From contig CM055111.1 in NCBI GenBank assembly GCA_029204225.1, forward strand, positions 18,889,015-18,953,014: a stretch of 64,000 bases of DNA, given 5' to 3'. Of this stretch, positions 8,062 through 55,040 are shown piece by piece. This DNA is from Diphasiastrum complanatum. Taxonomy: Eukaryota; Streptophyta; Lycopodiopsida; Lycopodiales; Lycopodiaceae. The notes below the pieces were generated by a model. The model was not told where the DNA came from. It did not search any database and worked only from the letters and a program-made list of their open reading frames with translations. The stretch's first letter is position 1. Each line of letters starts with the position of its first letter. Both the position numbers and the translations under genes were made by a program.

Positions 8062-8718
8062 TCATGGAAGATGATCAGCACTGAGGAGGGTCGATACCAG
8101 GACATTTTTCATCAAATAGCCATGATCCGGTCTGGAAAGATTCTGGCGAAAATTCAGGTGGCCATTTTCTGTCTTCTGTATCTTAAGGCCCATATCTATT
8201 TGGTACAGTTGAAAGCGATTGGTAGGTTTTTGAGATGTCATTTTGTTGGTCCACATAGTTGCTAGTAGAACCATCGGTCCTCCCAAAAGTTCAAGACTGT
8301 TTGCAGATTTGTGTCGGAGAAGTGTAGAGAAAAGTGCACCCCAGACTGGAATAGTCATGTAAATGAAAGTGGTGACGGATGCATTCACACCACGCAGAGC
8401 TCGTATTTCCAACCAGCTGCATAGTCCACCATAGACGAGACCATAGTACATCAATGGAAACCATGGTAAAGGTTGGGCTAGCATTGTGGAATCTAAGCCC
8501 CAATCACTGGAACTGGTGCGTAGATTGCATATCTCCCAAAAAGCACTGAGAACAGTTAATACGGCTAACTGAACGACATTTAAACGCTTTGCATTCAATG
8601 CTTTACCAATTTTGAGGACTTCTGCTCGAAATTTTTGCAGAGCGGAAGTTAAAGAACTGGCGAAAACCCATGAATTTCCACCTTGAGCGCGATATATACA
8701 CAAGGAACTTTTGATCAT
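8062..8718 (-). CDS. EamA/DMT transporter, C-terminal part (partial)
   Basis: A 218-codon open frame, most of which reads as the C-terminal EamA repeat of a drug/metabolite transporter, an integral membrane carrier; in plants several relatives are plastid-targeted. Four hydrophobic segments are visible: VVQLAVLTVLSAFW (about residue 48), PLPWFPLMYYGLVYGGLCSW (about 83), TTFIYMTIPVWGALFSTLL (about 115) and LLGGPMVLLATMW (about 144). The core pattern G-x-CSW-x-EIRALR...PVWGALF is diagnostic of the family. The last 60 residues show no family match and may be read-through. The 5' half of the gene is missing: the frame begins against a palindrome-rich repeat at 8718. It is either a last exon whose upstream exons lie outside the window or, more likely, a truncated gene copy. 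It lies between blocks A and B and is absent from the second copy of the duplication. Confidence 0.7.
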   Translation of the reverse strand: MIKSSLCIYRAQGGNSWVFASSLTSALQKFRAEVLKIGKALNAKRLNVVQLAVLTVLSAFWEICNLRTSSSDWGLDSTMLAQPLPWFPLMYYGLVYGGLCSWLEIRALRGVNASVTTFIYMTIPVWGALFSTLLRHKSANSLELLGGPMVLLATMWTNKMTSQKPTNRFQLYQIDMGLKIQKTENGHLNFRQNLSRPDHGYLMKNVLVSTLLSADHLP

Positions 8719-8930
8719 TCCTATATAGGAAAAAAAAAGAGTTTTCCTAGAACGAAATACACATAACTAGGAACTGTGCATTCACTAGGAAAAATAAAAC
8801 AGTTCCTAGATTGACAATATAGGAAAACTTTTCCTATATAGGAAAATTTTGACCAAGAATTTCCTAGAATAAGTATTTTCCTATATAGAAAATTTTTAAC
8901 AGAAAAGAATTAGTTTTCCTATATAGATAA
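8718..8930. repeat. Cluster of TTCCTATATAGGAA palindromes
   Basis: Perfect 14-bp palindromes TTCCTATATAGGAA lie at 8718-8731 and 8831-8844. About eight further TTCCTA or TAGGAA half sites occur within 210 bases, and partial versions follow at 8876 and 8911. The repeat abuts the truncated end of the transporter frame. The structure could be the subterminal repeats of a small DNA transposon or a cruciform-forming element. Confidence 0.55.
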
Positions 8931-10332: not shown

Positions 10333-12163
10333 GGCATAGCCGTGCTAAAATTTTGCATGTACAAAGTTGTTTTTCTAATATATGGTTACCTAGTGTATTT
10401 GCAAAGAAACCGGTTATTCAAAAGAGCCCTAGTCATGAATGTTGTAGCAGCCGATTTTGAGAAAAGAACCGACAAGTTTATGAATAGTAGATAATGTTTG
10501 ATAACAGAGAAAATATATCTACTGTAAGTAGGCATCAAAATCATTCACAGATTACACACCATAGACATAATGTCGCAACTTTTTTTTTTGTTTACAACAA
10601 CATTTTCAAGCACTTTTGTTTCCCAAATCAGCACGTCGATGCAAGAGAGGTAATCATGTCGTACGAGGAACTAGCTACTGCTCATTCTATATCTGTTTGT
10701 GTGACAATGTGTGTCTGCTACTTTGTGACTAACACTGACGCATTAAAAAAAAAAACCAGCACATCTCCCACGTTCATCCTGTTTATATAGCAACAGAGAG
10801 AAGGGAGTTTATAACTAATCATTTGATTACAAGAAATTGTTTAAGCTCATTCTAACGATTTCCAATTGTGCGTTGTCGTTGTCGTCGTCCGTGGAGTCTG
10901 TTCTCCATGTTGGTACTTCGTTGATCTTGCATGGTACTTAGGTCATGAAGATCCACCACTTTTGTAGCCATCTGTGAGTCGTATGTGACCGTAATCATTT
11001 CCTTGCAGTGTCTCTGCGGTCGTGAAGGTTCTTCGGAGCCTGAGACCTTTGGCAAGCAACCGCAGATAGACCGTAGTAGGGGCTTATGCGGTGCTCAGGC
11101 GGTTCGTCTCTTCAAGAGGGGAGAAACATTGTAAATCGTTAGTGTGAACTTTGTGGTGGCCTTCAGTCATCTTCCTTTGTGGACTGCTTTGTGTTTGTTT
11201 CATAGGTGACTGCAATCTCCAACTTGGAGATGGCCTTTGGTTTACTTTGCATTGGACCATAGGCTAGACTCTTTTAAAGTTGTTTGCATTGCAGTTATGG
11301 TTATTTTCAATTTCTGCCTGTTGGAAGTTCCCATGTATTTCTGTAGGTTTTGGTTCATAAGCTAGCAATGCTTTGTGGGTAGAAACTTCGTGTTTCTTCA
11401 AGTTCTAACCATGGCGGTTTGAAGGCAAAGAAACAAGTTGGTGAGCTTTGTTCAATGTCAAAGTTAGAAAGTTTGTCTTATTATAGATCTAGATGCATTT
11501 TCATTTAATACATTTGGATGTGCATTGTAAGAGTGCTTTGAGTAATGGAGGAGCAAAGATGTTTGTGACTTGCATTGAACTTGCATTGGTAACTTTAGTA
11601 GATATTTTTTAACTTATCTTCTAAAGAGTGAGGATTTCATACTTGATGTCTTTCTCAAGTTCAATAACGTTGTGGAGAGTCAATTCAACAATGAAGATCA
11701 AGTGCTTAAAGTTGGCAAATGAGACCTATCAACAAAGTTCAAAGATGTTTGTGTGGCACATGGGATCAAGAGGGAGCTTTCAAACTCAAAGGTTATACAT
11801 AGTCTGGAAGAGAGGAAGATCAATCTTTTTGAAAGAGCCAAATCCATGAGGGTGAATGCAATCTTCATAAGTCTTCTGGGGTGAAGCTTTGATGTATGCT
11901 AAGTTTGTTTTCATAAGGTACTCAAATGAAGATTTATATGGTTGGTAAGAAGCCAAGTTTGGAGCATTTGAAGATCTTTGGTAGTACTTGCTATGTCAAC
12001 TCATCTTTTGGATTCTTGAAGGGAATATGTATTGGCTATAGTGAAGTAATGAAAATTTATAGGGTTTACATTCCTAAGTCAAAGAAAGTTCACATTTATA
12101 AGGATGTTGTCTTTGAAGAGGAGATTGTGGAGAAGATTGATGTTCTTGATGTTGATCAATCTA
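10333..12163. repeat. Duplicated block B, copy 1
   Basis: This 1831-bp block matches 41820-43648 in the same orientation, with scattered substitutions only. Its right end is a copia integrase remnant that stops at 12163, where an opposite-strand copia fragment begins. Its left 1.3 kb has no recognised coding content. Confidence 0.88.
11628..12163 (+). pseudogene. Copia integrase remnant within block B
   Basis: The frames read FLKFNNVVESQF, then HGIKRELSN and LEERKINLFERAKSM, a decayed integrase core with the region around the catalytic Asp and Glu lost. Then comes VGKKPSLEHLKIFGSTCYV and GICIGYSEVMKIYRVY, the well-kept integrase C-terminal block. Stops and frameshifts are frequent in the first half. 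The second copy of block B carries the same remnant and extends further. Confidence 0.75.
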
Positions 12164-33955: not shown

Positions 33956-33960
33956 GTATT
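33956..33960. repeat. Target site duplication (left) of the young copia-like element
   Basis: GTATT precedes the 5' LTR and recurs at 39049-39053 after the 3' LTR. The gypsy sequence continues across it. Confidence 0.92.
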
Positions 33961-34780
33961 TGTGAGAAACTAACAAAAATCTAGCTTGGTATTTTTTATG
34001 ATAGAAGTTTGTAAGTGAATCTCACATGTGTGGAGGATGTTCCCACGTGTGGAGAATTGTAAAGTAAATCAAAATGTTTGATATAGGGGTCTCATAGAAT
34101 TTCATAGTCAAGCATTTAGGTGTAGGATGTTGATAGGGTCAAATTTGGCATAGATGGCAAATTATCCATTTCCACTTGTTATGCCAATATTGAGCCAAAA
34201 TAGAGCCAAACTTGTGCCAATTAGAGTGTAGACAAGTGTCATGCTTTTGTTTGATGAAGCTTAAGAGGTCCAATAGGATTTAGAGGTGGAACCTTGTGAG
34301 GTCCAATAGAAAATTGGGGTGTGCTTGAATATAGTCCAATAGAATTTAGAGGTGCATGGATCAATGGTCCAATAGGATTAAGAGGTGGCAAAGTGTGATC
34401 CAATCATAGTTAAGCATAGTGGTAGCTCATGAATCTATTAGTATCATTGTACTCCTCCTTTTGGATCTTATTGATTTTGAGATTGAGTGGATTTTGAGTG
34501 TCATTGAATTTCTAGCTTTCTCTCTCTACCCGAGAGCTCATGATGGTTTTTCTCTCTCTACCCAAGGAGAGCAGCTTGTTTTTACTTAGAATACTTTTGG
34601 AACACTTCCCACACGTGTGAGTGAGAGTTGTAAGTGATTGAATGCATGTAGTAGTGTGTTTTTGCCATAGAATCAAAGATAGATCTTGAATCTCAATCTA
34701 GTCTTGATCCTGGTGCATCTACACACCTTAGGAGATCACAAGTACATGTAGTGGACAATCCACACGTGTGAAATTCAACA
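33961..34780 (+). repeat. 5' LTR, 820 bp
   Basis: It starts TGTGAGAAAC and ends TGTGAAATTCAACA, with TGT...ACA termini. It contains several CACGTGTG motifs near both ends. It is immediately followed by TGGTATCAGAGCC. Confidence 0.95.
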
Positions 34781-34792
34781 TGGTATCAGAGC
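34781..34792 (+). other. Primer-binding site, initiator tRNA-Met
   Basis: TGGTATCAGAGC is the canonical copia primer-binding site, directly abutting the LTR. Confidence 0.95.
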
Positions 34793-35531
34793 CTAAGGTT
34801 ACCATGCATTTTGATCCATTTGAGTGAAAACTATTCATCAATCTTGAGTTAGAAATTGTCAAGGCCCATTTTCCTGGCTATCTTGTTCAATTTTGGATCA
34901 AAGAGATCAAAAGGACATTGATTGGGTCTGATCTGGTACTGTACGGAATCAGGTGCTCAGACACGTGTGAGGAACATCCAATTTCAGTTTGGGAGTTCTC
35001 TTTCATGTTTGATCCAAAAATCTTGCTAGATAGCTTGTTTTGAAGCTATTTTTGTCTAGTTTCTAATCAATCAGTTTCATTCCATTTGGTTGAGCCAATC
35101 AAAAGTTATAAGCTTTTGAAGAGGGTTAGGTAGGGCACCTAGACCTGGGTGGACACATTTGGTTTGGTCAAAAGATTGCTTGTTTGATCCAAAATCACAG
35201 TTGAATGCTTACCAATCTCATCTATATGTGATCTAGGCACTGTTTTGAGATCTTAGCCATTTTGTTTCATGCAGTATCATTGTATTTGAGTCAAATTTGG
35301 TTTCTTAGTGTATTTCACACGTGCTAAGAGTGTTTGATCCTAACTTTGCCCATACTCCATCATTTGATGTGAAGTAGATCTAGTTTTGGAGAGATTGAGA
35401 TAGCTAGTGAAAATCATCTCACAATTTGTTGCAAGATCTTGCATAGGAGATGGTAGCACACCATTATTGGATCCTATAGTGAGAGAGAAGCAACATTTTT
35501 TGTTCATCACTTTTATTTATTTCCACTTTAC

Positions 35532-37133
35532 ATGACTTCAATGAGTTCATACTTGTTGCAACCAAGTGACAGATTGTCTACTTCCAATTATTCAATATGG
35601 AAGTTGAGGATGGAGTCCATCTTGATACTCCAAGATGTGATGGACATTGTACTTGGGATTGAGGAGGAGCCTCAATTCCTTCAAGAAGTACAAAAATACA
35701 AGAAGAGAGCTAGGATGGCTCTCCACTACATTAAGATGAATGTCTCTAATGAGATATTGAGGGAGATTGGTGATTGTTCTACATCCAAGGAAGCTTGGGA
35801 TTGTCTCAAGTCCATCTATGAGGCTAAGAACACCTCTAGGCTCCTCACTCTTAGAAATCAAATATTCCAAAGTAGTCAAAAGAGTGATGAGAGTGCATCT
35901 AATTATGTTTTGAGAGTCAAGGATATTCATAGGGAGCTTGCATGTATTGGTGAATCAATCAATCAAAGTGAGCTAGTCCAAGTCATTCTCAATGGCTTGA
36001 GAGATGAATATGACAACCTTGTCCAATCCTATGCCATTAAGGAGGAGCTACCAAGTTTGGAGGCCCTTCAAAGTGTGCTTATTTCTGAAGAATCAAGACA
36101 AGAGTACAAACTCTTGAGGATGGACAAGCTATCACTCAATCATGATGATGGCAAAGTTCTATTTGCCAAAGAGAGGAGTAAGAAGCAACACCATCACTTC
36201 TCTAATGACAAAGCTAAAGACCAAGATGAAGATGAGGAGGGGGATACCTCTCATGCTTCTACTTCAAATCTCAAGAAGAAGAAGATCAAGTGCTTTTATT
36301 GTGGCAAGAAAGGCCATTATGCCACCAATTGCTTCAAGAAGAAGAATCAACTCAATCAAGCCAACATCACCAATGAGAAAGAAGACTATATTGCAAGTGA
36401 TGGAGAAGGCTCTCTTATGGCATCAAGCTTCTCCTCTTCCACCTTCAACAAGGATGACTCATGGTATATTGATAGTGGAGCATCTTCACATATGTGTGGC
36501 TCCAAGCACTCTTTTTCATCTATTATGCCTTATGATGGAGTCAAGAAGACCATATACTTTGCAAGTAAGCATGAGTGCAATATTGAAGGAGTAGGGATTA
36601 TTCCCTTGAAGGTTGCATCTTCTAAAGATCTCTTTCTCAACAATGTTCTTTTTGTCCCAAAGCTTACAAAGAACATCTTAAGTGTTGGCCAACTTCTTGA
36701 TAGTGGCTTTGATGTCAATTTCAATATTGACAATTGTGTGATTAAGAAGGATGGTGAGATCCTTGCATATGGATCAAGATTTGAAGGCATCTACAAATTG
36801 GATCCAAGTGAGAGTGCAAACTCTCTTGATGTTTCTTATATTTCCAATATTTCAAAGGAGGAGGATTACACAAGATGCACATATCTTCTCTCTTCAAGTA
36901 TTACGGTGTATGATTATTCCTTATTATTCAAAGCATATGTTGAGAAGAAATTCTCATTGAAGATCAAAGCTTTGAGGAGTATTGGAGATCTTGAAGGAAT
37001 AGCACCATATGAAGTTTTATTCAAGATGAAGCCTAAGGTTGATCACCTTAGTGAACTTGGTAGTGCTTGCTTTGCACATATTCCCTTGGAAACAAGAAGG
37101 AAGGATGATCCAAGCTCATGGATCATGATTTGA
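35532..37133 (+). CDS. Gag-protease with truncated integrase
   Basis: A 533-codon frame. Gag of the UBN2 type covers roughly residues 1-220 (NYSIWKLRMESILILQD, then ALHYIKMNVSNEILR and TSRLLTLRNQIFQS). A CCHC knuckle is at residues 254-267 (CFYCGKKGHYATNC). Protease has its catalytic DSGAS at residues 314-318 inside DSWYIDSGASSHM, with LFVPKLTKNILSVGQL after it. The zinc module and D-D-E core of integrase are gone: FKAYVEKKFSLKIKALRS joins directly to GIAPYEVLFKMKPKVDHL. The frame ends at a TGA where relatives have the Gly of FIGYSSN. Reading past it continues in frame into the next CDS, so the stop looks like a point mutation (GGA to TGA) in an 857-codon polyprotein. The start at 35532 is the first ATG of the frame, 740 bases after the primer-binding site. 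Confidence 0.9.
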   Translation: MTSMSSYLLQPSDRLSTSNYSIWKLRMESILILQDVMDIVLGIEEEPQFLQEVQKYKKRARMALHYIKMNVSNEILREIGDCSTSKEAWDCLKSIYEAKNTSRLLTLRNQIFQSSQKSDESASNYVLRVKDIHRELACIGESINQSELVQVILNGLRDEYDNLVQSYAIKEELPSLEALQSVLISEESRQEYKLLRMDKLSLNHDDGKVLFAKERSKKQHHHFSNDKAKDQDEDEEGDTSHASTSNLKKKKIKCFYCGKKGHYATNCFKKKNQLNQANITNEKEDYIASDGEGSLMASSFSSSTFNKDDSWYIDSGASSHMCGSKHSFSSIMPYDGVKKTIYFASKHECNIEGVGIIPLKVASSKDLFLNNVLFVPKLTKNILSVGQLLDSGFDVNFNIDNCVIKKDGEILAYGSRFEGIYKLDPSESANSLDVSYISNISKEEDYTRCTYLLSSSITVYDYSLLFKAYVEKKFSLKIKALRSIGDLEGIAPYEVLFKMKPKVDHLSELGSACFAHIPLETRRKDDPSSWIMI

Positions 37134-37184
37134 TACTCATCCAACAAGGAAGCCTTTAGTGTCTTTACACTCTCTATTTCAAAT

Positions 37185-38102
37185 GTGATCGTGAATAGAG
37201 ATGTCATATTGCATGAAGATTCAATCTTGGAAGTGGCCGAGATCAAGGCTTCTCAAGAAGCATCACAAGTTGTCTTTTTTGAAGGTATTCAAGTTATGAT
37301 GGGGCCAATGTGTGAGGAAGAGCTTCTTCTTCATATGATTTCAAGAAGATCTTCAAGATGCATGGCCGAGTCTTTATGGCTCACCTTACATGGCAAAGAG
37401 GGGCATCTTTCATGTTGTATCTACTACAACACATTCATATATGCTTCTCTTCCTTTGCTTGAAATGCTATCTTGCTTCATTGAATTTTTTGGATCTCAAA
37501 GTTCAAGAAAAGCTATACTAGTTTTGTATGATGCTTATGGTATGGACATGTTTCTTGTCATTATTGACTTAGATGTGTTTCCAATACTTTTTGAAAGCAA
37601 GATATTGTATTGTCAAAAGTATGCTCTTGGTTCTAGTAAGAACAAGATTGAGCTTGGTACTCACTTTTTTGAAAATCATGTTTTCACATGTTTTGAGGCA
37701 AATTGTAAACTCCTCTTGAGATTAAGTGAAGCATCCAAAGTGGACACTTACATCCTTGAGAGAGTAACTAGCCTAAAAAAGATCAAGATAGTCTTTGATA
37801 TCAAGATTAGATCCATCATGGATATAGTTCATTGTATGTGGACTAGTCAAGCTAGAAAGCATAATCTTGATTTTCATCATTGTTTCACATCTTATGATCT
37901 TGATCTCCATGATCCTTATGAGGCTTGGAAGCCTCAGATTTTTCTATTTATGGTGCATCCATCATGCAAGTGGAACTTTCAAGGCAAAGATCATCATCAA
38001 GCATGGAGGAAGCCCATGATAATAGTGGCATGTTGGTGGAGCACTCTTCAAAGGCATTGGCAAGAGATCTCTACCAAAGAGACCTTATCATGGATATGGT
38101 GA
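37185..38102 (+). CDS. X domain: unknown protein replacing RT-RNase H
   Basis: A 305-codon open frame in the same phase as the gag-protease frame, separated by one TGA and 17 codons. Its first 15 or so residues (VNRDVILHEDSILEVAE) are the copia integrase tail. The remaining 265 match nothing I know. The sequence is rich in Cys, Ile and Leu and includes hydrophobic stretches (YASLPLLEMLSCFIEFF; YGMDMFLVIIDLDVFPILF) and a conserved-looking block (CFEANCKLLLRLSEASKVDTYI). It ends KETLSWIW and stop. No RT motif (YVDD, LKQAPRAW) or RNase H motif is present. A homologue at 40641-41142 aligns over about 100 residues and ends with the same LSWIW-stop. After the stop, LADLHFLCIPKDPL resembles the end of copia RNase H, so the domain sits where RT-RNase H was. 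Function is unknown; it may be a captured host fragment or a rapidly evolved remnant. Confidence 0.7.
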   Translation: MIVNRDVILHEDSILEVAEIKASQEASQVVFFEGIQVMMGPMCEEELLLHMISRRSSRCMAESLWLTLHGKEGHLSCCIYYNTFIYASLPLLEMLSCFIEFFGSQSSRKAILVLYDAYGMDMFLVIIDLDVFPILFESKILYCQKYALGSSKNKIELGTHFFENHVFTCFEANCKLLLRLSEASKVDTYILERVTSLKKIKIVFDIKIRSIMDIVHCMWTSQARKHNLDFHHCFTSYDLDLHDPYEAWKPQIFLFMVHPSCKWNFQGKDHHQAWRKPMIIVACWWSTLQRHWQEISTKETLSWIW

Positions 38103-38219
38103 GGGTGCTGCTATGATGGATCCCTTGGCTGATCTTCACTTCTTATGCATACCAAAGGATCCACTCAAAAAGATTTACAAACTTCTCAAGTGATCTAGTA
38201 CCTTTCCAAGCTATTTTTT

Positions 38220-38228
38220 GAGGAGGAG
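38220..38228 (+). other. Polypurine tract
   Basis: GAGGAGGAG immediately upstream of the 3' LTR. It is identical to the tract at 20763-20771. Confidence 0.9.
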
Positions 38229-39048
38229 TGTGAGAAATTGGCAAAAATCTAGCTTGGTATTTTTTATGATAGAAGTTTGTAAGTGAATCTCACATGTGTG
38301 GAGGATGTTCCCACGTGTGGAGAATTGTAAAGTAAATCAAAATGTTTGATATAGGGGTCTCATAGAATTTCATAGTCAAGCATTTAGGTGTAGGATGTTG
38401 ATAGGGTCAAATTTGGCATAGATGGCAAATTATCCATTTCCACTTGTAATGCCAATATTGAGCCAAAATAGAGCCAAACTTGTGCCAATTAGAGTGTAGA
38501 CAAGTGTCATGCTTTTGTTTGATGAAGCTTAAGAGGTCCAATAGGATTTAGAGGTGGAACCTTGTGAGGTCCAATAGAAAATTGAGGTGTGCTTGAATAT
38601 AGTTCAATAGAATTTAGAGGTGCATGGATCAATGGTCCAATAGGATTAAGAGGTGGCAAAGTGTGATCCAATCATAGTTAAGCATAGTGGTAGCTCATGA
38701 ATCTATTAGTATCATTGTACTCCTCCTTTTGGATCTAATTGATTTTGAGATTGAGTGGATTTTGAGTGTCATTGAATTTCTAGCTTTCTCTCTCTACCCG
38801 AGAGCTCATGATGGTTTTTCTCTCTCTACCCGAGGAGAGCAGCTTTTTTTTACTTAGAATACTTTTGGAACACTTCCCACACGTGTGAGTGAGAGTTGGA
38901 AGTGATTGAATGCATGTAGTAGTGTGTTTTTGCCATAGAATCAAAGATAGATCTTGAATCTCAATCTAGTCTTGATCTTGGTGCATCTACACACCTTAGG
39001 AGATCACAAGTACATGTAATGGACAATCCACACGTGTGAAATTTAACA
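38229..39048 (+). repeat. 3' LTR, 820 bp
   Basis: It aligns end to end without gaps to 33961-34780, with about 13 substitutions. It starts TGTGAGAAATTGGC and ends TGTGAAATTTAACA. Confidence 0.95.
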
Positions 39049-39340
39049 GTATTCAATATTATTTGGAAGACTGCGGCTAAATCAAGCAGATGCTATTATA
39101 AACTGGTCTACCAAACAAATATTTTTTCCAGGCGTTCTCACAGCTAGTCCAATAGGTGGTCACCTTTTGAGATGAGGTGAGCAGACCTACTGAATCCTAG
39201 ATCAATTTCATAGAATGCTATGAGCTTGATGAGGATGAGGAAATACCAACAACATCTGAGTCGAGGGAAGTTTTGGGTGAAACCAAAGCAAACCTAACCG
39301 AAGGGATGGTAGATAAAATATATTATGTAGAAATAAAAAT
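39049..39340 (+). pseudogene. Ty3/gypsy remnant (3' piece)
   Basis: It begins with the GTATT duplication and continues the interrupted gypsy protease: LRLNQADAIINWSTKQIFF follows the protease as in gypsy polyproteins. Beyond about 39150 the frames are broken, and it joins block A copy 2 at 39344. Confidence 0.7.
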
Positions 39341-40640: not shown

Positions 40641-41142
40641 GTTGTTTGATCAAATGAGTGCTCTCATATTTAGGAAGATCAAGAATGAGTTAATCACTCA
40701 TTGTTTTGAAACATGTGTTTTTTCTTTTGGAGAGGCAAATTGTAAGCTTCTTATGAGAATAAGTGAAACATCCTCGAAGGACACTTATATCCATAAGCAA
40801 GTATGTAGCCTCATGAAGTTCAAGATCACTTGTAATTACAAAATTAGGAAAATCATGCTTACTTTTGATGGTTTGTGGACTAGTCATTTTAGCATGATAG
40901 ATCTTGGTAATAGTGGCAAGTACATGTTTTGTGATCTTGATCAATGTGACTTTCACAAGACATGGAGACATCAGATTTCCTTCAAAGAGAAGCATCAAGA
41001 TCAAGGAGGAGAAAGTTTCAAGTTCATGCCTCTTCACTCAACATGGAAGAAATCAAGTGCAAAGGTGCAAGGAAAAATCAAGACTCTTCAATTCATCTTG
41101 GAGGAGATCAAGATCAAAGAAGCTCTATCTTGGATATGGTGA
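40641..41142 (+). pseudogene. X-domain homologue (partial copia-like element)
   Basis: The frame reads FRKIKNELITHCFETCVF, then GEANCKLLMRISETSSKDTY and FKITCNYKIRKIM, ending KEALSWIW and stop. It aligns with the C-terminal two thirds of the X domain at 37185-38102. In the best block most differences are third-position or conservative (for example AAA/AAG, CTC/CTT, TTG/ATG), as expected for coding constraint. No gag precedes it. A family 2 LTR piece follows at 41262. It is 5'-truncated at the block A boundary. Confidence 0.65.
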
Positions 41143-41819: not shown

Positions 41820-43648
41820 GCATAGCCGTGCTAAAATTTCGCATGTACAAAGTTGTTTTTCTAATATATGGTTACCTAGTGTATTTGCAGAGAAACCGGT
41901 TATTCAAAAGAGCCCTAGTCATGAATGTTGTAGCAGCCGATTTCGAGAAAAGAACCGACAAGTTTATGAACAGTAGATAATGTTTGATAACAGAGAAAAT
42001 ATATCTACTTTAAATAGGCATCAAAATCATTCACAGATTACACACCATAGACATAATGTCGCAACTTTTTTTTTTTGTTTACAACAACATTTTCAAGCAC
42101 TTTTGTTTCCCAAATCAGCACGTCGGTGCACGAGAGGTAATCATGTCGTACGAGGAACTAGCTACTGCTCATTCTATATCTGTTTGTGTGACAATGTGTG
42201 TCTGCTACTTTGTGACTAACACTGACGCATTAAAAAAAAAAACCAGCACATCTCCCACGTTCATCATGTTTATGAAGGAACAGAGAGAAGGGAGTTTATG
42301 CTAATCATTTGATTACAAGAAATTGTTTAAGCTCATTCTAACGATTTCCAATTGTGCGTTGTCGTTGTCGTCGTCCGTGGAGTCTGTTCTCCATGTTGGT
42401 ACTTCGTTAATCTTGCATGGTACTTAGGTCATGAAGATCCGCCACTTTTGTAGCCATCTGTGAGTCGTATGTGACCGTAATCATTTCCTTGTAGTGTCTC
42501 TGCGGTCGTGAAGGTTCTTCGGAGCCTGAGACCTTTGGCAAGCAACCGCAGATAGACCGTAGTAGGGGCTTATGCGGTGCTCAGGCGGTTCGTCTCTTCA
42601 AGAGGGGAGAAACATTGTAAATCGTTAGTGTGAAATTTGTGGTGGCCTTCAGTCATCTTCCTTTGTGGACTGCTTTGTGTTTGTTTCATAGGTGACTGCA
42701 ATCTCCAACTTGGAGATGGCCTTTGGTTTACTTTGCATTGGACCATAGGCTAGACTCTTTTAAAGTTGTTTGCATTGCAGTTATGGTTATTTTCAGTTTC
42801 TGCCTGTTGGTAGTTCCCATGTATTTCTGCAGGTTTTGGTTCATAAGCTAGCAATGCTTTGTGGGTAGAAACTTCGTGTTTCTTCAAGTTCTAACCATGG
42901 TGGTTTGAAGGCAAAGAAACAAGTTGGTGAGCTTTGTTCAATATCAAAGTTAGAAAGTTTGTCTTATTATAGATCTAGATGCATTTTCATTTAATACATT
43001 TGGATGTGCATTGTAAGAGTGCTTTGAGTAATGGAGGAGCAAAGATGTTTGTGACTTGCATTGAACTTGCATTGGTGACTTTAGTAGATATTTTTTAACT
43101 TATCTTCTAAAGAGTGAGGATTTCATACTTGATGTCTTTCTCAAGTTCAAAAACGTTGTGGAGAGTCAATTCAACAGTGAAGCTCAAGTGCTTAAAGTTG
43201 GCAAATGAGACCTATCAACAAAGTTCAAAGATGTTTGTGTAGCACATGGGATCAAGAGGGAGCTTTCAAACTCAAAGGTTATACATAGTCTGGAAGAGAG
43301 GAAGATCAATCTTTTGAAAGAGCCAAATCCATGAGGGTGAATGCAATCTTCATAAGTCTTCTGGGGTGAAGCTTTGATGTATGCTAAGTTTGTTTTCATT
43401 AGGTACTCAAATGAAGACTTATATGGTTGGTAAGAAGCCAAGTTTGGAGCATTTGAAGGTCTTTGGAAGTACTTGCTATGTCAACTCATCTTTTGGATTC
43501 TTGAAGGGAATATGTATTGGATATAATGAAGTAATGAAAGCTTATAGGGTTTACATTCCTAAGTCAAAGAAAGTTCACATTTCTAAGGATGTTGTCTTTG
43601 AAGAGGAGATTGTGGAGAAGATTGATGTTGTTGATGTTGATCAATCTA
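41820..43648. repeat. Duplicated block B, copy 2
   Basis: 1829 bp, colinear with 10333-12163. The copia integrase remnant at its right end continues past the block boundary here, showing that this copy keeps the original right flank and copy 1 was cut. Confidence 0.88.
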
Positions 43649-49128: not shown

Positions 49129-52100
49129 TTATTTATCATCGCAAGATTCAAATTCATCAACCAATACATCTTGCAACTCATCTCCGCTAAGATGATTTTT
49201 ATCATCACTATCGAAATCAAAACCTCTCTCAATATTGTCCTCATGCAAAGAATCATTGTTGTCCTCTTCATCATCTGAGTTGTCGGAATCATGAGAATCA
49301 ATTCTTGGGTTTTCAATATTTATAAAACTCGAAGGTATATGTACATCTTCATCAGATATACTTGTGTTGTCCAAATTTAGATCTTCCATTTCATTCTCAA
49401 CATATGCATTTTCGAATACATGTCTCGAGCATGGTTTAATTTGAACAACATACCACCAATCTTTGTTTAGTCGATCTGGTTGAAAAAATACCTGCACATT
49501 TAGCAATGTTAGGATTAGATATTTGTTATGCTCACATTTTAATTCACAATAAATAGATGTAATGAAAAAAGTAGTGTAAATGATTAATATAATATTGATC
49601 ACAATTGATCACAATTGACAAAAAGAAAAAAATGTGAAATTCATGCACACCTGTTCACAATGACGAGGCAACACCAACGTGTCTGAAAAGTCCATGCTTA
49701 ATGTCTTGGTTGAATCGATAGCAAAAAATCCACTACGATCGTTTTTTACAGTTGCATTTGATCCTCTATAGTTGATCTTGAACCATTTCACGTCAAACAA
49801 CAAATATTTACCCATTCACCAAAACACACCTCATATATGGCTTGTATGGTTCCTACACACTCAAGCTCTCTAGAAATTGGACTCTGATCTCGAGCACTAC
49901 TTTGACTTTCTTGATGGAAGGATGTCATCACACCACAATCATAAGTTCGTCGTTTCATATCAATTGATTCAATGCGATGATGATGACCACATGCCCACAT
50001 TGCACTATACTTTCGATACCGTCACATGTTGATTATAATTAAAACAATAATCAATCATCGTACAAATCAAAATTGTTCACTTAAAAAAAATAGAGTTATA
50101 GACAAACCTTCCAATCACATCCTCTTGCAAATCCTCATTCTGTGTCAGATATGAATTGTCCCTTTGATCTTGCTTGCTGGAGTGTGTCAACCATTCAGTC
50201 TATAGTGCATTGGTTGGGCAATGGCTCAAGATCATGCGAAGGTGTAGCTTGACCTCTACGCCTATTGCATCAGTGTCAATTTCTAGTCAATACCCTCTTT
50301 TTTTTTTCTTCTTCATATAATTCCAACCATTTATCCATTACTCCTGAATTATATAGCATGAAGGTTGAAATTTTTTCTCTCACACTGGGTGTCATTTTTT
50401 TAAGACTACCCATACCTTGAGGTTCTTTACCTTTCACCTCATTGCTTTCCTCATCATGCCATAGTCGTGGAGCAGATGGATCTATTTGAAACAAAACTTC
50501 AGTAACATAAAATAGAGATTCTTGCACTAACCATCCCTCTGACATGCTTCCCTCTGGCCTTGCCTTCTGACGCACAAAATCTTTCAACACTTTCATGAAT
50601 CTCTCCAAGAAAAACATCCACCTACATAAAATTTTAACACATCAATGAGAACATTCTGTTATTTATATTTTGAGAAAATCACACTACATTTATTGAAACT
50701 ACTAAAATCAAATTCAAGTGTATTATATCTTGAGTGCACAAGACCGGCAATACCAACTTCTTGGACCAAGTGCACAAGCAGATGCACCTGTATGTCTAGG
50801 ATAGAAGTTGGAAAATCCCTCTCAAGCATATATACACCCTCCACCATATCTTCTTGTTTTGTTTGCACGTCTATCTCACGAATCTCCTTACCACACATCC
50901 ATCTATAACATGTTTGTAGTATAACTAGATTTTAGTACGTTCATATTATTTTATCGAACTTGTATTAGAAAAAAACAAAATTTCATAAGATATCGATGTA
51001 AATAAAAAGAATCAAGTACTTGACAACGGATGCTAATTTGTAAATGGCATCACGAAGTTGATCAGTTAGACAGCCACGAATGCACATTGGAAATATGTAC
51101 TCGACCATCTTCAACCAATTGTGAGATTTTAGACCATGGAGTTTTCCTTCAGTTGTGAATGATGTTCGTAGTGAACAAGCAAAACCCGTTGGTGTTCTCA
51201 TCTCTCAAATGACTGACCGTACGTACTTATACTCTTCTTTCGTAAAAATCCAAGGGGCTCTTGGAATACTATAGGTATCTCCATCAGTACATAATTTTGG
51301 CCGATACTCTTTTTTTGTTTTTGATTCTTGTAGATCATGCTTGGCAGAAATACTGTCTTTGTCGCCCACCAAGTGTTTCCATACTGATTCACCCACATTT
51401 TTGAATATCTGCATAGGATCAAGCAAGTAATTGATCAAAAAGTTATTCCAATATGGTAAACAATGAAAGATGGATAGTCTTTTCATACCATTGATTGGCT
51501 TAGTCTCAGATTCAATCCAAAGTTTGTGCCAATCGGCCACGGACATTCTCTTTGGAGGCATCCTTGTTTCTGATCTTCCTCCAAAGCTTCTTCTATGAGC
51601 ATTTCTAAATGGATGATTTTCATCATGCAAGTACTTGCGATGATTTTCATACACAACTTTGTTTAAATGCCGTGAGTGGCGAGCATCAATATTTGGTCCA
51701 CAAATGAGACACGCGTGATATCCAAAAGTTGTAAAACCTAAAAGAATCAAATCCAATTCGTGTTATAAATAGAATTCTTTTAAAGCATAAATATTTTATG
51801 CATAAAGAATAAATATACAAACATTACAAATGATTTCATTTTATAGTCACCTGAACAATCGCCCAATCCTGGATAGTCATGCATAGTCCACATTAACATC
51901 GCACGCAACAAAAATGTTTTGTCTTGAAGTGGACGTGAGATGTCATATGCTTGGACTCCCTTCCATAGTAGTTCTAGTTCCTCAATCAATGGTGCAAAGT
52001 AGATATCCATATTTTTTACTATGTTTTCCAGGAATTAGAAGTGCTAGTATGAGATATCCTTTTTTGATGCTTAGCCAAGGTGGAATGTTATAGTTGACCA

Positions 52101-52330
52101 ACACCACTGGCCAAGTAGACCACGTGCTTGACATTTTTCCAAAGGGGTTAACCCCGTCTGTTGCAAGTCCAAATATTATATTTCTTGTTTCACTTGCGAA
52201 ACATGGATATTCTTTGTCAATGTGTTTCCATGCAGGAGAGTCTGAGGGTACTCTCATGATCTCATCCGAAGAACGATGACTAGCATGCCAATTCACAAGT
52301 TCTGCAAGAGACTTGCAATGAAACATAGGA
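49129..52330 (-). pseudogene. TNP2-like CACTA transposase gene, 5' truncated
   Basis: The gene has several exons. Exon 1 (to 51851) gives LVNWHASHRSSDEIMR, SPAWKHIDKEYPCF, then FGLATDGVNPFGKMSS and WPVVLVNYNIPPW, the TNP2 transposase signature. A +1 slip in an A run near 52016 shifts the frame before PLIEELELLWKGVQAYD and MLMWTMHDYPGLGD. Exon 2 (from 51737) reads TTFGYHACLICGP, CPPKR-like RMPPKRMSVADWH, and a TGA at 51207-51205 ahead of MRTPTGFACSL. Exons at 50902 and about 50620 read FPTSILDIQVHLLVHLVQE and LERFMKVLKDFVRQKARPEG, the DUF4218 region. Further 3', VKWFKINYRG, FFQPDRLNKDWWYVVQ and an acidic tail form the DUF4216 region, ending at 49129. The N-terminal third, upstream of 52330, is replaced by an unrelated repeat. 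The frameshift, stop and truncation make it inactive. Confidence 0.85.
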
Positions 52331-52389
52331 AGAAGAGGAGATTCTACACAAGGTATGTGAGGTGATGTGGGATGGATGTTGAATTTGAT

Positions 52390-55040
52390 ACTTACATGTG
52401 AAACAACTCTATTTTGGTCCCTATTGCTTGACATAGCCCATTGAATAATCATAATTAACTAGCATCAAAGTTCAAATTTAATGCCTAACGTGTGGTTTTG
52501 ATGTTGATCACTCAACATGGCTGATGAAGGGATTAGACTCAACTAGTTTCAAATCTACTGTAACTGAGATCTAATGACTTAAAAGATCTAGTAGAAGAGT
52601 TAGCATATGGTTGCTTTCGAGCCTTTGAGAATAGCCTCCTTTGCTTAAATCTGTTTACAATGCAAGTATCATAATAGAGCAAACACCTTCCTTAAAATGA
52701 ACATCTAAACCACTATCCATTAGTTGCCCAACATCAAGCAAGCTCCTAGTAAGATTAGAAACATAGAGTACATTTTCTATATCCAATCTTTTAGAGGATC
52801 CAAGACTTAAAGAGATCCAAGACTAGCCTCACTCTCAATCCACCATGTGTCATTGGAGTAGCTCTTGCTTGTTGGTGTAGATGCCATCAAGGATAAATCA
52901 ACTTCATCCTCATAATCCTCAATGGTAAGGTTGTCTTGCTTACTCTCATCTTGTGCATTCTTCTGTTTGTCACTGGGATGCAAAGTGCCTTCCACAAAAG
53001 AAGCACTTTTGTTTGGCTTTGTCTTTCTTCTTTCCTTTAGAGCTTAATTCTTGATCATCATCACTTTTGCCATGCTTTGGATTTTCTTCTTGGACTTCCA
53101 TTATGCAATACATTTAGCTTGATTGTTTTTTTATCACTTATCAATGGAATTGACCCCTATCATACAATATAGCTCAAATTTATTGTCTATCACTTGAGAT
53201 AAGACATTGAGTGATCAAGTTAGAGTAATTTCGAGTTTATGACTTTCATGTAACTTTGAATGTTGTGCTTACATGTGAGACAACTCAATTCTGGTCCTGA
53301 TTACTCATCATTGTTCTTTTAGTGATCATAATTGACCAACATCACATCGAATAGCTCAATCTTGGGGTCTATCAATGTAAATAGCCCCATTTTGGTGTCT
53401 CTATCACTCAAGAAAGTCAAAATTTTCTACCTAACATATGATTTTGTTGCTTATCACTTGACATGGCTCTATCAAGTGACTAGACTCAACAAGTAATATA
53501 TTAAGACAACTCAAGTTCAACCCCTTGTCAAACCCCTATTACACGTGATGACTTAAATTTTATGTCTATGCGTGGTTTTGTTGCTTATCACTCGACACAG
53601 CTCATCAAGTGATCAAACTCAACCAATCCCAAGTCTAATTTACTAAGATAGCTCATATCAAATGAGATAACTAAAATTTGATGTGTATATTTTGGAATAG
53701 CTCACTTTTGGTGCATATCACTAAAGGTTTCTCATAAAGTGACCAAATTTGAGAAATTGTGTGCTCATGAAGTAGATTGAAGTCAATTCCCATCACTTTA
53801 GATAGTTCAAATCTAATGTCCAATACAAGATCTTGGTCCTTATCACTTGACATAGAAGATCGAGTGACTGAACTTGGTCAATCTATGATTTGGAACAATC
53901 AATTTTGGCCCCTGATAGATTGAATCTAGTCCTTGGGCAGGATGATTAGTTTGTTGCTTGGAAGGACAAGAGAGCAATAGTTTTATTTTAAGAAGAGATT
54001 ACGGCAGCAGAGATCTAATATAAGAGCATGAGCACTTCAACAGATGGACATTTCAAATGCTCAATTTTTTCTTGTACCCTATCACCATCTCAAGAAAAAT
54101 CCATTTTACGCTCTCAATGATCTTCTGAAATCAAATTCAACTGTGATACAATCAATTAGTCATGGCGATCCTGTTAGCATTGCTGGTAGCACCTCTGCAC
54201 AAGACCACAACCAAGTATTTCACAAACAAAGATGTTTGATCCATTCCTCAATGCTAGCAATCATCTAACAACGTCCACCGAGTTATTTCCTTTCCATCCA
54301 CTCAACACAAAATCCAAAAATACCCCACCACATTCCCTTGCACTCTTGTCAATTGCTCTCATCTCCATCCATCAACAATCCCTTAACGAAAAAAACCCAC
54401 CTCCAATATCTCCTCGGATTCCACCCACAAAGATTTCAGATCTCTTCTATCCTTAATCTTCCTTCAACTGGCTTTAACCGCATAGCACACAACCATGTTC
54501 CTCGAAATCTATTAGCTCATTGGTACAATACCTCATGGAAGTGGTAGTATATCTAGCGTCCCTCAGTGTATTACAAAAAAGAAGAAGGAAGATTGCACCC
54601 AGCTTAACACATGTTTTTTTATTTTTAAAAAAGATTCCGACCCAGTACGTTCTGACCTAAAAGGGTCGAAAAGGGTTTCTAAGGGACACATATATAAATA
54701 TGTCTATCAATGTAAATAGCCCCATTTTGGTGTCTCTATCACTCGAGAAAGTCAAAATTTGCTACCTAACATATGATTTTGTTGCTTATTACTTGACATG
54801 GCTCTATCAAGTGACTAGACTCAACAAGTAATATATTAAGACAACTCAAGTTCAACCCCTTGTCAAACCCCTATTACACGTGATGACTTAAATTTTATGT
54901 CTACGTGGTTTTGTTGCTTATCACTCGACATGGCTCATCAAGTGATCAGACTCAACCAATCCCAGGTCTAGTATACTGAGATAGCTCATATCACATGAGA
55001 TAAAGGTCGGAAAGGGTTTCTAAGGGACACATATATAACA
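52390..55040. repeat. Repeat array with TCAAGTGA units, replacing the transposase 5' end
   Basis: The motif 'CACTTGACATGGCT...TCAAGTGA..AGACTCAA' recurs in diverged form near 52510, 53455, 53590, 53750, 53840, 54790 and 54920. One 320-base stretch (53367-53690) is nearly identical to 54703-55000. A 35-base AAAGGGTTTCTAAGGGACAC segment flanks that copy on both sides (54664 and 55005). No coding content I can support; a frame at 54044-54268 is open but unrecognised. Confidence 0.6.

Follow-up and report, generated by a model that had tools for sequence, protein, structure and literature searches.

We analyzed a 64,000-nucleotide stretch of the Diphasiastrum complanatum genome (GenBank assembly GCA_029204225.1, contig CM055111.1, positions 18,889,015 to 18,953,014 of the forward strand), hereafter the window, which carries a copia-type long terminal repeat (LTR) retrotransposon at 33961-39048. 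Its polyprotein frame ends in a stretch, here called X, that occupies the place of reverse transcriptase (RT)-RNase H, and a second copia family carries a related stretch, X2. The window element belongs to a gag-coding, pol-defective copia family that is probably mobilized in trans, with X probably a degenerate pol remnant in which the frame is kept and the residues are nearly neutral. A first-pass annotation, made from the sequence alone, had described X as a domain that the lineage keeps for a purpose. The keeping of the open frame was borne out; keeping for the sake of the sequence was not supported.

The features of the element are as follows.

33956..33960, no strand: target-site duplication GTATT, left copy
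33961..34780, plus strand: 5' LTR, 820 bp, TG...CA
34781..34793, plus strand: primer-binding site TGGTATCAGAGCC, directly 3' of the 5' LTR
35532..37130, plus strand: frame 1, gag-protease and integrase remnant
35610-36104, plus strand: gag (Pfam Retrotran_gag_2, 1.4e-28)
36285-36335, plus strand: CCHC knuckle
36462-36710, plus strand: protease region (Pfam Pol_BBD, 2.9e-24)
37023-37130, plus strand: integrase remnant, including half of an SH3-like domain (Pfam and similarity to pol)
37131..37133, plus strand: TGA private to the window copy
37134..38102, plus strand: frame 2 with X, 322 codons and a stop
37344..37451, plus strand: X segment that runs collinear with the integrase-RT linker in an autonomous copia
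37452..37646, plus strand: part of X in place of the RT N-terminus
37647..38099, plus strand: X core, about 150 residues, with relatives only among X and X2 elements
38113..38193, plus strand: RNase H tail, in a different frame from X
38220..38228, plus strand: polypurine tract GAGGAGGAG, directly 5' of the 3' LTR
38229..39048, plus strand: 3' LTR, 820 bp
39049..39053, no strand: target-site duplication GTATT, right copy

The structural completeness claimed in the first-pass annotation was confirmed for the LTRs (98.4% identical over 820 bp, with 13 mismatches and no gaps), the GTATT duplication, the primer-binding site, which we take to be of the initiator methionine tRNA type, and the polypurine tract. 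Paired TG...CA LTRs, a short target duplication, both priming sites, and a copia-type gag are all features of Ty1/copia elements. The integrase core and RT-RNase H were not found in the window element, which is therefore a copia derivative and not an autonomous member. Pfam and similarity comparison agreed with the earlier description that gag, knuckle, and protease are kept and that integrase core and RT are absent; the first half of SH3_retrovirus was matched at 2e-05 and 24.9 bits, below the Pfam cut-off of 27. The long frame at 35532-38102 with its single TGA was also recovered, and none of 20 other copies has a stop at that TGA position. Across the frame-2 stretch, the remaining five frames contain 15 to 29 stops each. 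The RNase H end was found after X, as first described. An autonomous copy from the same genome, L059, shares with the window element the polypurine tract, the LTR start, the linker, and the RNase H tail; it differs in having RT and RNase H, in a reported frame of 1,345 codons. The polypurine tract and LTR start are common to the window element, L059, and the X2 elements L043 and L053, and between the window element and L059 this segment is the same at 23 of 24 bases.

The family is abundant and young. A tag of 24 bases (8 codons) taken from the C-terminal coding ends of X and X2 had 1,523 exact sites in the 1.745-Gb genome, and the reversed tag, used as control, had none. Two long LTR matches were present in 18 of 21 copies tried (the window copy included), with LTR distances of 0 to 0.0225; the distance was 0.0161 in the window copy and two other copies had no difference. 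These distances and the loss of pol support the earlier view of the element as non-autonomous and young. Openness was judged in three samples, each with a different bias: copies ranked by X protein, copies ranked by gag-protease-integrase without X, and tag-picked sites. In the first, X was free of stops in 119 of 124 scored copies, and 69 of the 124 lay in a frame reported as 840 codons or longer; in the second, the frame reached at least 840 codons in 60 of 81 copies, 10 of which had a stop in the gag part, leaving 50 of 81 free of both. These frame lengths are as given by the tool, which reads through stops. Only 6 of 40 fetched tag-picked sites were fully open over 290 X codons, including 4 of 17 sites with the main motif. 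X was open in all 20 fetched best matches; 17 of these covered the whole gag-to-X frame, and 11 had it open throughout (one tested from codon 38 on). An X frame that is open in many copies, as the first-pass annotation had anticipated, was thus observed, and many single copies are broken, as expected after insertion. The gag-protease frame is kept in many copies that lack pol, the pattern of a gag-coding non-autonomous family. Two X-family copies on contig C14, L017 (15.13 Mb) and L018 (14.92 Mb), are flanked by identical bases on either side, and one of them is therefore probably a segmental duplicate and not an insertion of its own.

The link between X and pol lies in the first half of X. 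By tblastn, positions 173-393 of an autonomous pol matched window positions 36996-37646 in one stretch (E 2.75e-17), integrase part included. X alone scored 64 against the linker plus pol (maximum 59 in 500 shuffles) and 43 against the linker only, a score reached in 2 of 1000 shuffles. Among relatives compared with the linker, L073, L077, L087, and L081 had scores reached in 0 of 1000 shuffles each, and L091 in 490. The first-pass annotation had placed the start of X at 37230; no domain boundary lies there, because 37344-37451 still resembles the integrase-RT linker. Downstream of the linker, L091 scored 65 against RT-RNase H (whole piece, 1 of 1000 shuffles), and the 56 L091 residues aligned to X beyond the linker matched RT in 51 gap-free columns (0 of 1000 shuffles). 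Since L091 was one among several relatives tried, the evidence that X includes an RT start is good without being overwhelming. Scores against RT-RNase H only were reached in 589 (L077), 156 (L087), and 444 (L081) of 1000 shuffles. A partial match to a broken RT, which the first-pass annotation had named as a possible refutation of its proposal, was accordingly found: collinearity, with the linker and in L091 also with the RT start, covers the first half of X and does not extend to the last 150 residues. The C-terminal X pieces L077:21-281 and L087:21-365 (minus strand) contain SCKWYFQIK, which resembles the RT start CKWVFRLK. This CKW-F-K match of the C-terminal pieces to the RT start was reached in 0 (L077), 2 (L087), and 12 (L073) of 1000 shuffles, in an order that differs from that of the linker match. 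A split of L073 into halves was misplaced, and results of that split were not used.

The earlier description of X as unrecognized stood. The window X had no Pfam match at E ≤ 10, no PDB match better than E 0.85, and no NCBIfam match, and no confirmed relative was found in viral and bacterial collections. RVT_2 was not matched at E ≤ 10 in X, in six X2 pieces, or in ten pieces of older relatives, and no YVDD was read there. Protein-frame comparisons of X and X2 with RT gave nothing, nor did a profile-profile comparison of X with two RTs; a structure prediction for X from two rows had a mean predicted local distance difference test score of 37.3. Several candidates were set aside. HMG_CoA_synt_C (E 0.03 and 0.11, the best on an X2 piece) in the family search, a designed repeat protein (E 0.023, an X2 piece) in the structure search, and zf-RING_16 (0.15) and YMF19_C (0.12) on pieces of older relatives were taken as chance. 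X as RT in another frame was rejected, as a frameshift-aware comparison with the window RT scored little above shuffles (score reached by dinucleotide shuffles in 8 and 11 of 150 and by codon shuffles in 61 and 37 of 150); RT mutated up to 45% with six indels scored clearly higher. Of twelve DNA comparisons with RT, two stood at 5 of 200 (X, plus strand) and 7 of 200 (X2, minus strand). A permissive plus-strand DNA comparison (X, z 4; X2, z 3.5) was not used, its scoring being near-global and including the RNase H tail, and an RT profile that gave X 3e-37 was discarded as circular, as it contained the window's own X fragment.

The second family is represented in the window by one piece.

40642..41142, plus strand: X2, the X domain as carried by a second copia family, its 5' side cut by another repeat (relative of X encoded at 40642-41139)

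X2 is 42% identical to X over 166 amino acids (E 1e-23) with one 3-base indel. There were 1,996 X2 candidates, of which 40 were scored (95-100% identity). In less damaged copies the frame runs from the linker through a short RT piece into X2. Compared with L059, L053 shows about 74% DNA identity in two stretches, one the linker and the other beginning at the RNase H tail and extending into the LTR, and has a 62-base RT piece that matches ahead of X2; between this piece and the RNase H tail, blastn found no match. L032 matches L059 in the linker and RT piece, and in the RNase H tail by tblastx only. X therefore stands in place of RT-RNase H in both families. A degenerate motif search for third X families returned 37 sites (10 in the control), and none of 12 fetched was an X relative. 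Fourteen of the 40 scored X2 matches (L029-L042, the window's included) lie on the window contig, C20, at 16.9-19.2 Mb and 38.6-39.1 Mb. These are 97-100% identical, and the other 26 are at 97% or less; because of this clustering, the C20 region may multiply DNA blocks beyond single insertions.

Comparison between the two families suggests that the frame of X has been retained. X of copy L014 and X2 of L053 differ at 189 positions in 165 codons (38% divergence), and neither of them carries a stop; in 1,200 simulation runs without constraint, under four settings, the mean was about 9 stops and no run had zero. L073 likewise had no stop in 73 differences (3.3 expected, P 0.026). It is very improbable that X is simply decayed pol with a frame open by chance or youth and under no selection, a view with which the few fully open main-motif sites would agree, as would the 20 best X copies, in which no purifying signal was found among few variants (38 replacement, 6 silent); it does not account for the absence of stops between X and X2. 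As far as the compared copies show, the reading frame of X is kept and its residues hardly are.

Constraint on residues was estimated with a codon model as omega (dN/dS, the ratio of nonsynonymous to synonymous rates), with p testing omega = 1. For X of L014, omega was 0.83 against L073 (p 0.54), 0.74 against L089 (p 0.32), 0.68 against L087 (p 0.07), 0.67 against L077 (p 0.05), 0.60 against L091 (p 0.02), 0.58 against X2 of L053 (p 0.02), and 0.55 against X2 of L032 (p 0.007), and for the X core against L053 it was 0.59 (p 0.05); the alignments derive from protein matches, a bias that favors low omega for X. Between families, gag-protease gave 0.11 (L043) and 0.07 (L050), with L052 and L053 saturated and p below 1e-19 in all four. 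Omega was 0.26 (p 2e-8) for RT-RNase H of two autonomous copies and 0.26 (p 0.002, 45 codons) for the linker of L053 and L059. Differences by codon position told the same story: against L053, X had 108/110/109 and gag 136/97/197, and gag had 108/95/162 against L043 and 110/82/161 against L050 (RT, 21/16/52). X pairs with L077 (70/60/67) and L087 (55/58/60) also showed no third-position excess. By counting, 14 of 17 X pairs lay at 0.48-0.86, and three pairs with few changes gave 0.24, 1.02, and 1.52; between families, the mean was 0.55 for X2 (27 copies) and 0.19 for gag (the 11 of 21 copies that were unsaturated). At the fitting transition rate the neutral expectation was 0.80 (standard deviation 0.18), and a fraction of 0.057 of simulations gave the observed value of 0.55 or less. 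Compared between the two families that carry X, gag shows strong purifying selection, and the residues of X appear to drift nearly neutrally. The first-pass annotation had set a dN/dS well below 1 as support for a conserved functional domain; X, at 0.55-0.83 with near-flat codon positions beside 0.07-0.11 for gag, did not show it. Descriptions of non-autonomous elements usually speak of coding parts that were lost or have eroded; here a kept open frame separates from a kept protein sequence, and a long open frame across many copies is by itself no proof of a functional domain.

Several observations weigh against X as a nearly neutral pol remnant. Omega was below 1 with nominal significance in three of the seven X pairs (p 0.019, 0.017, and 0.007), and a slight third-position excess was seen for X of L073 (23/22/28), L080 (69/64/80), L081 (98/88/108), and L091 (118/110/129), so weak residue constraint on X is possible; the X2 copies and relatives compared were, moreover, chosen partly for being open. 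Without the linker, X did not match RT-RNase H significantly (score 37, reached in 396 of 1000 shuffles), and its last 150 residues matched no RT-RNase H in order, which makes captured sequence possible there. Synonymous divergence between the families was 0.68-1.23 for X (27 copies) and 2.35-3.66 for gag (11 copies, with 10 more saturated). The common ancestry of X is therefore younger than that of gag, pointing to exchange of X between the families or entry into both from one source and not to simple descent in place. No helper for the X family was identified, and no search aimed at one was completed.

The signs of constraint bear on the view of X as a genuine protein domain, evolving fast, that acts in the particle and aids use of the helper. 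The frame kept between X and X2, the same location in two families, conserved stretches such as EANCKL and LSWIW, and the three omega values below 1 at nominal significance would all suit such a domain. We nevertheless consider it unlikely, given omega values and codon positions so far from the clear third-position excess of gag, the collinearity of the first half with ordinary pol, and the lack of any credible family or structure match (best E 0.03 and E 0.023, both X2 pieces). The younger ancestry of X and the missing RT match bear instead on its core. The last 150 residues could be other DNA, captured once and spread between copia families by recombination, with the frame serving as filler thereafter; in L053, similarity to autonomous pol ends at X2 and returns at the RNase H tail. 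This is quite improbable in our judgment, as the stretch before the core is collinear pol, so that drifted pol is simpler, and as no source was found, with host genes not searched by name.

In the reading that we favor, the element would make its own Gag and protease, pack its RNA, and borrow RT and integrase from an autonomous copia element. X would be what erosion has left of the pol end in the polyprotein, partly recognizable as linker and RT start and too diverged to act as an enzyme. The polypurine tract and LTR start shared with L059 would fit, without proving, a helper of that kind. The X stop at 38102 sits 126 bases upstream of the 3' LTR (38229); with a stop farther upstream, the gag mRNA would have a long 3' untranslated region (UTR). 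Long 3' UTRs make plant mRNAs prone to nonsense-mediated decay. As a guess, an open X frame would limit the length of that 3' UTR, or would keep Gag-protease joined to a C-terminal extension. A bolder reading, which we rate as less likely than not, is that selection holds a retrotransposon frame open over a thousand bases whatever it encodes, X being frame-only filler whose stop near the 3' LTR lets the gag mRNA escape decay, the module having passed between copia families. One limited literature search brought up no example of long-3' UTR decay in a plant retrotransposon. In a genome that has more than 1,000 tagged copies as well as two families and some older relatives, frame selection for mRNA stability could be tested directly against selection for protein.

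The window family is a copia variant of known gag-protease elements, with an in-frame pol remnant. TR-GAG elements carry terminal repeats and a gag frame but lack pol; the window element differs in adding protease, an integrase remnant, and X in the same frame. Other parallels come from wheat, where PMC9744471 describes the gypsy elements RLG_Sabrina_SA and RLG_WHAM as "semi-autonomous", with an intact Gag-protease frame, no RT or integrase, and high copy number, and proposes that they and an autonomous element are parts of one complex; short frames lacking known relatives occur in some derivatives of Sabrina. The likeness to the window family lies in the Gag-protease frame, the missing RT and integrase, and the high copy number. 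The wheat elements differ in being gypsy and in that their unknown frames replace gag-protease, whereas in the copia family of the window an open frame replaces pol, in phase with gag. RLG_Quinta is the non-autonomous partner of RLG_Cereba; in the abstract of that study (PMC11302176), Quinta is proposed to supply gag and Cereba all proteins needed, an argument that includes conserved LTR, primer-binding site, and polypurine tract motifs. RLG_Quinta differs in being gypsy and centromeric, and the abstract names no in-frame extension of unknown kind. In a limited literature search, we came to know of no report of the X family.

Elsewhere in the window, a 1.83-kb repeat occurs at 10334-12163 and 41820-43648 (97.8% identical) and overlaps a copia SH3-like coding stretch. 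A tnp2-type transposase in two pieces lies at 51205-52458 on the minus strand, and an EamA-type transporter gene fragment is at 8062-8766, also on the minus strand.

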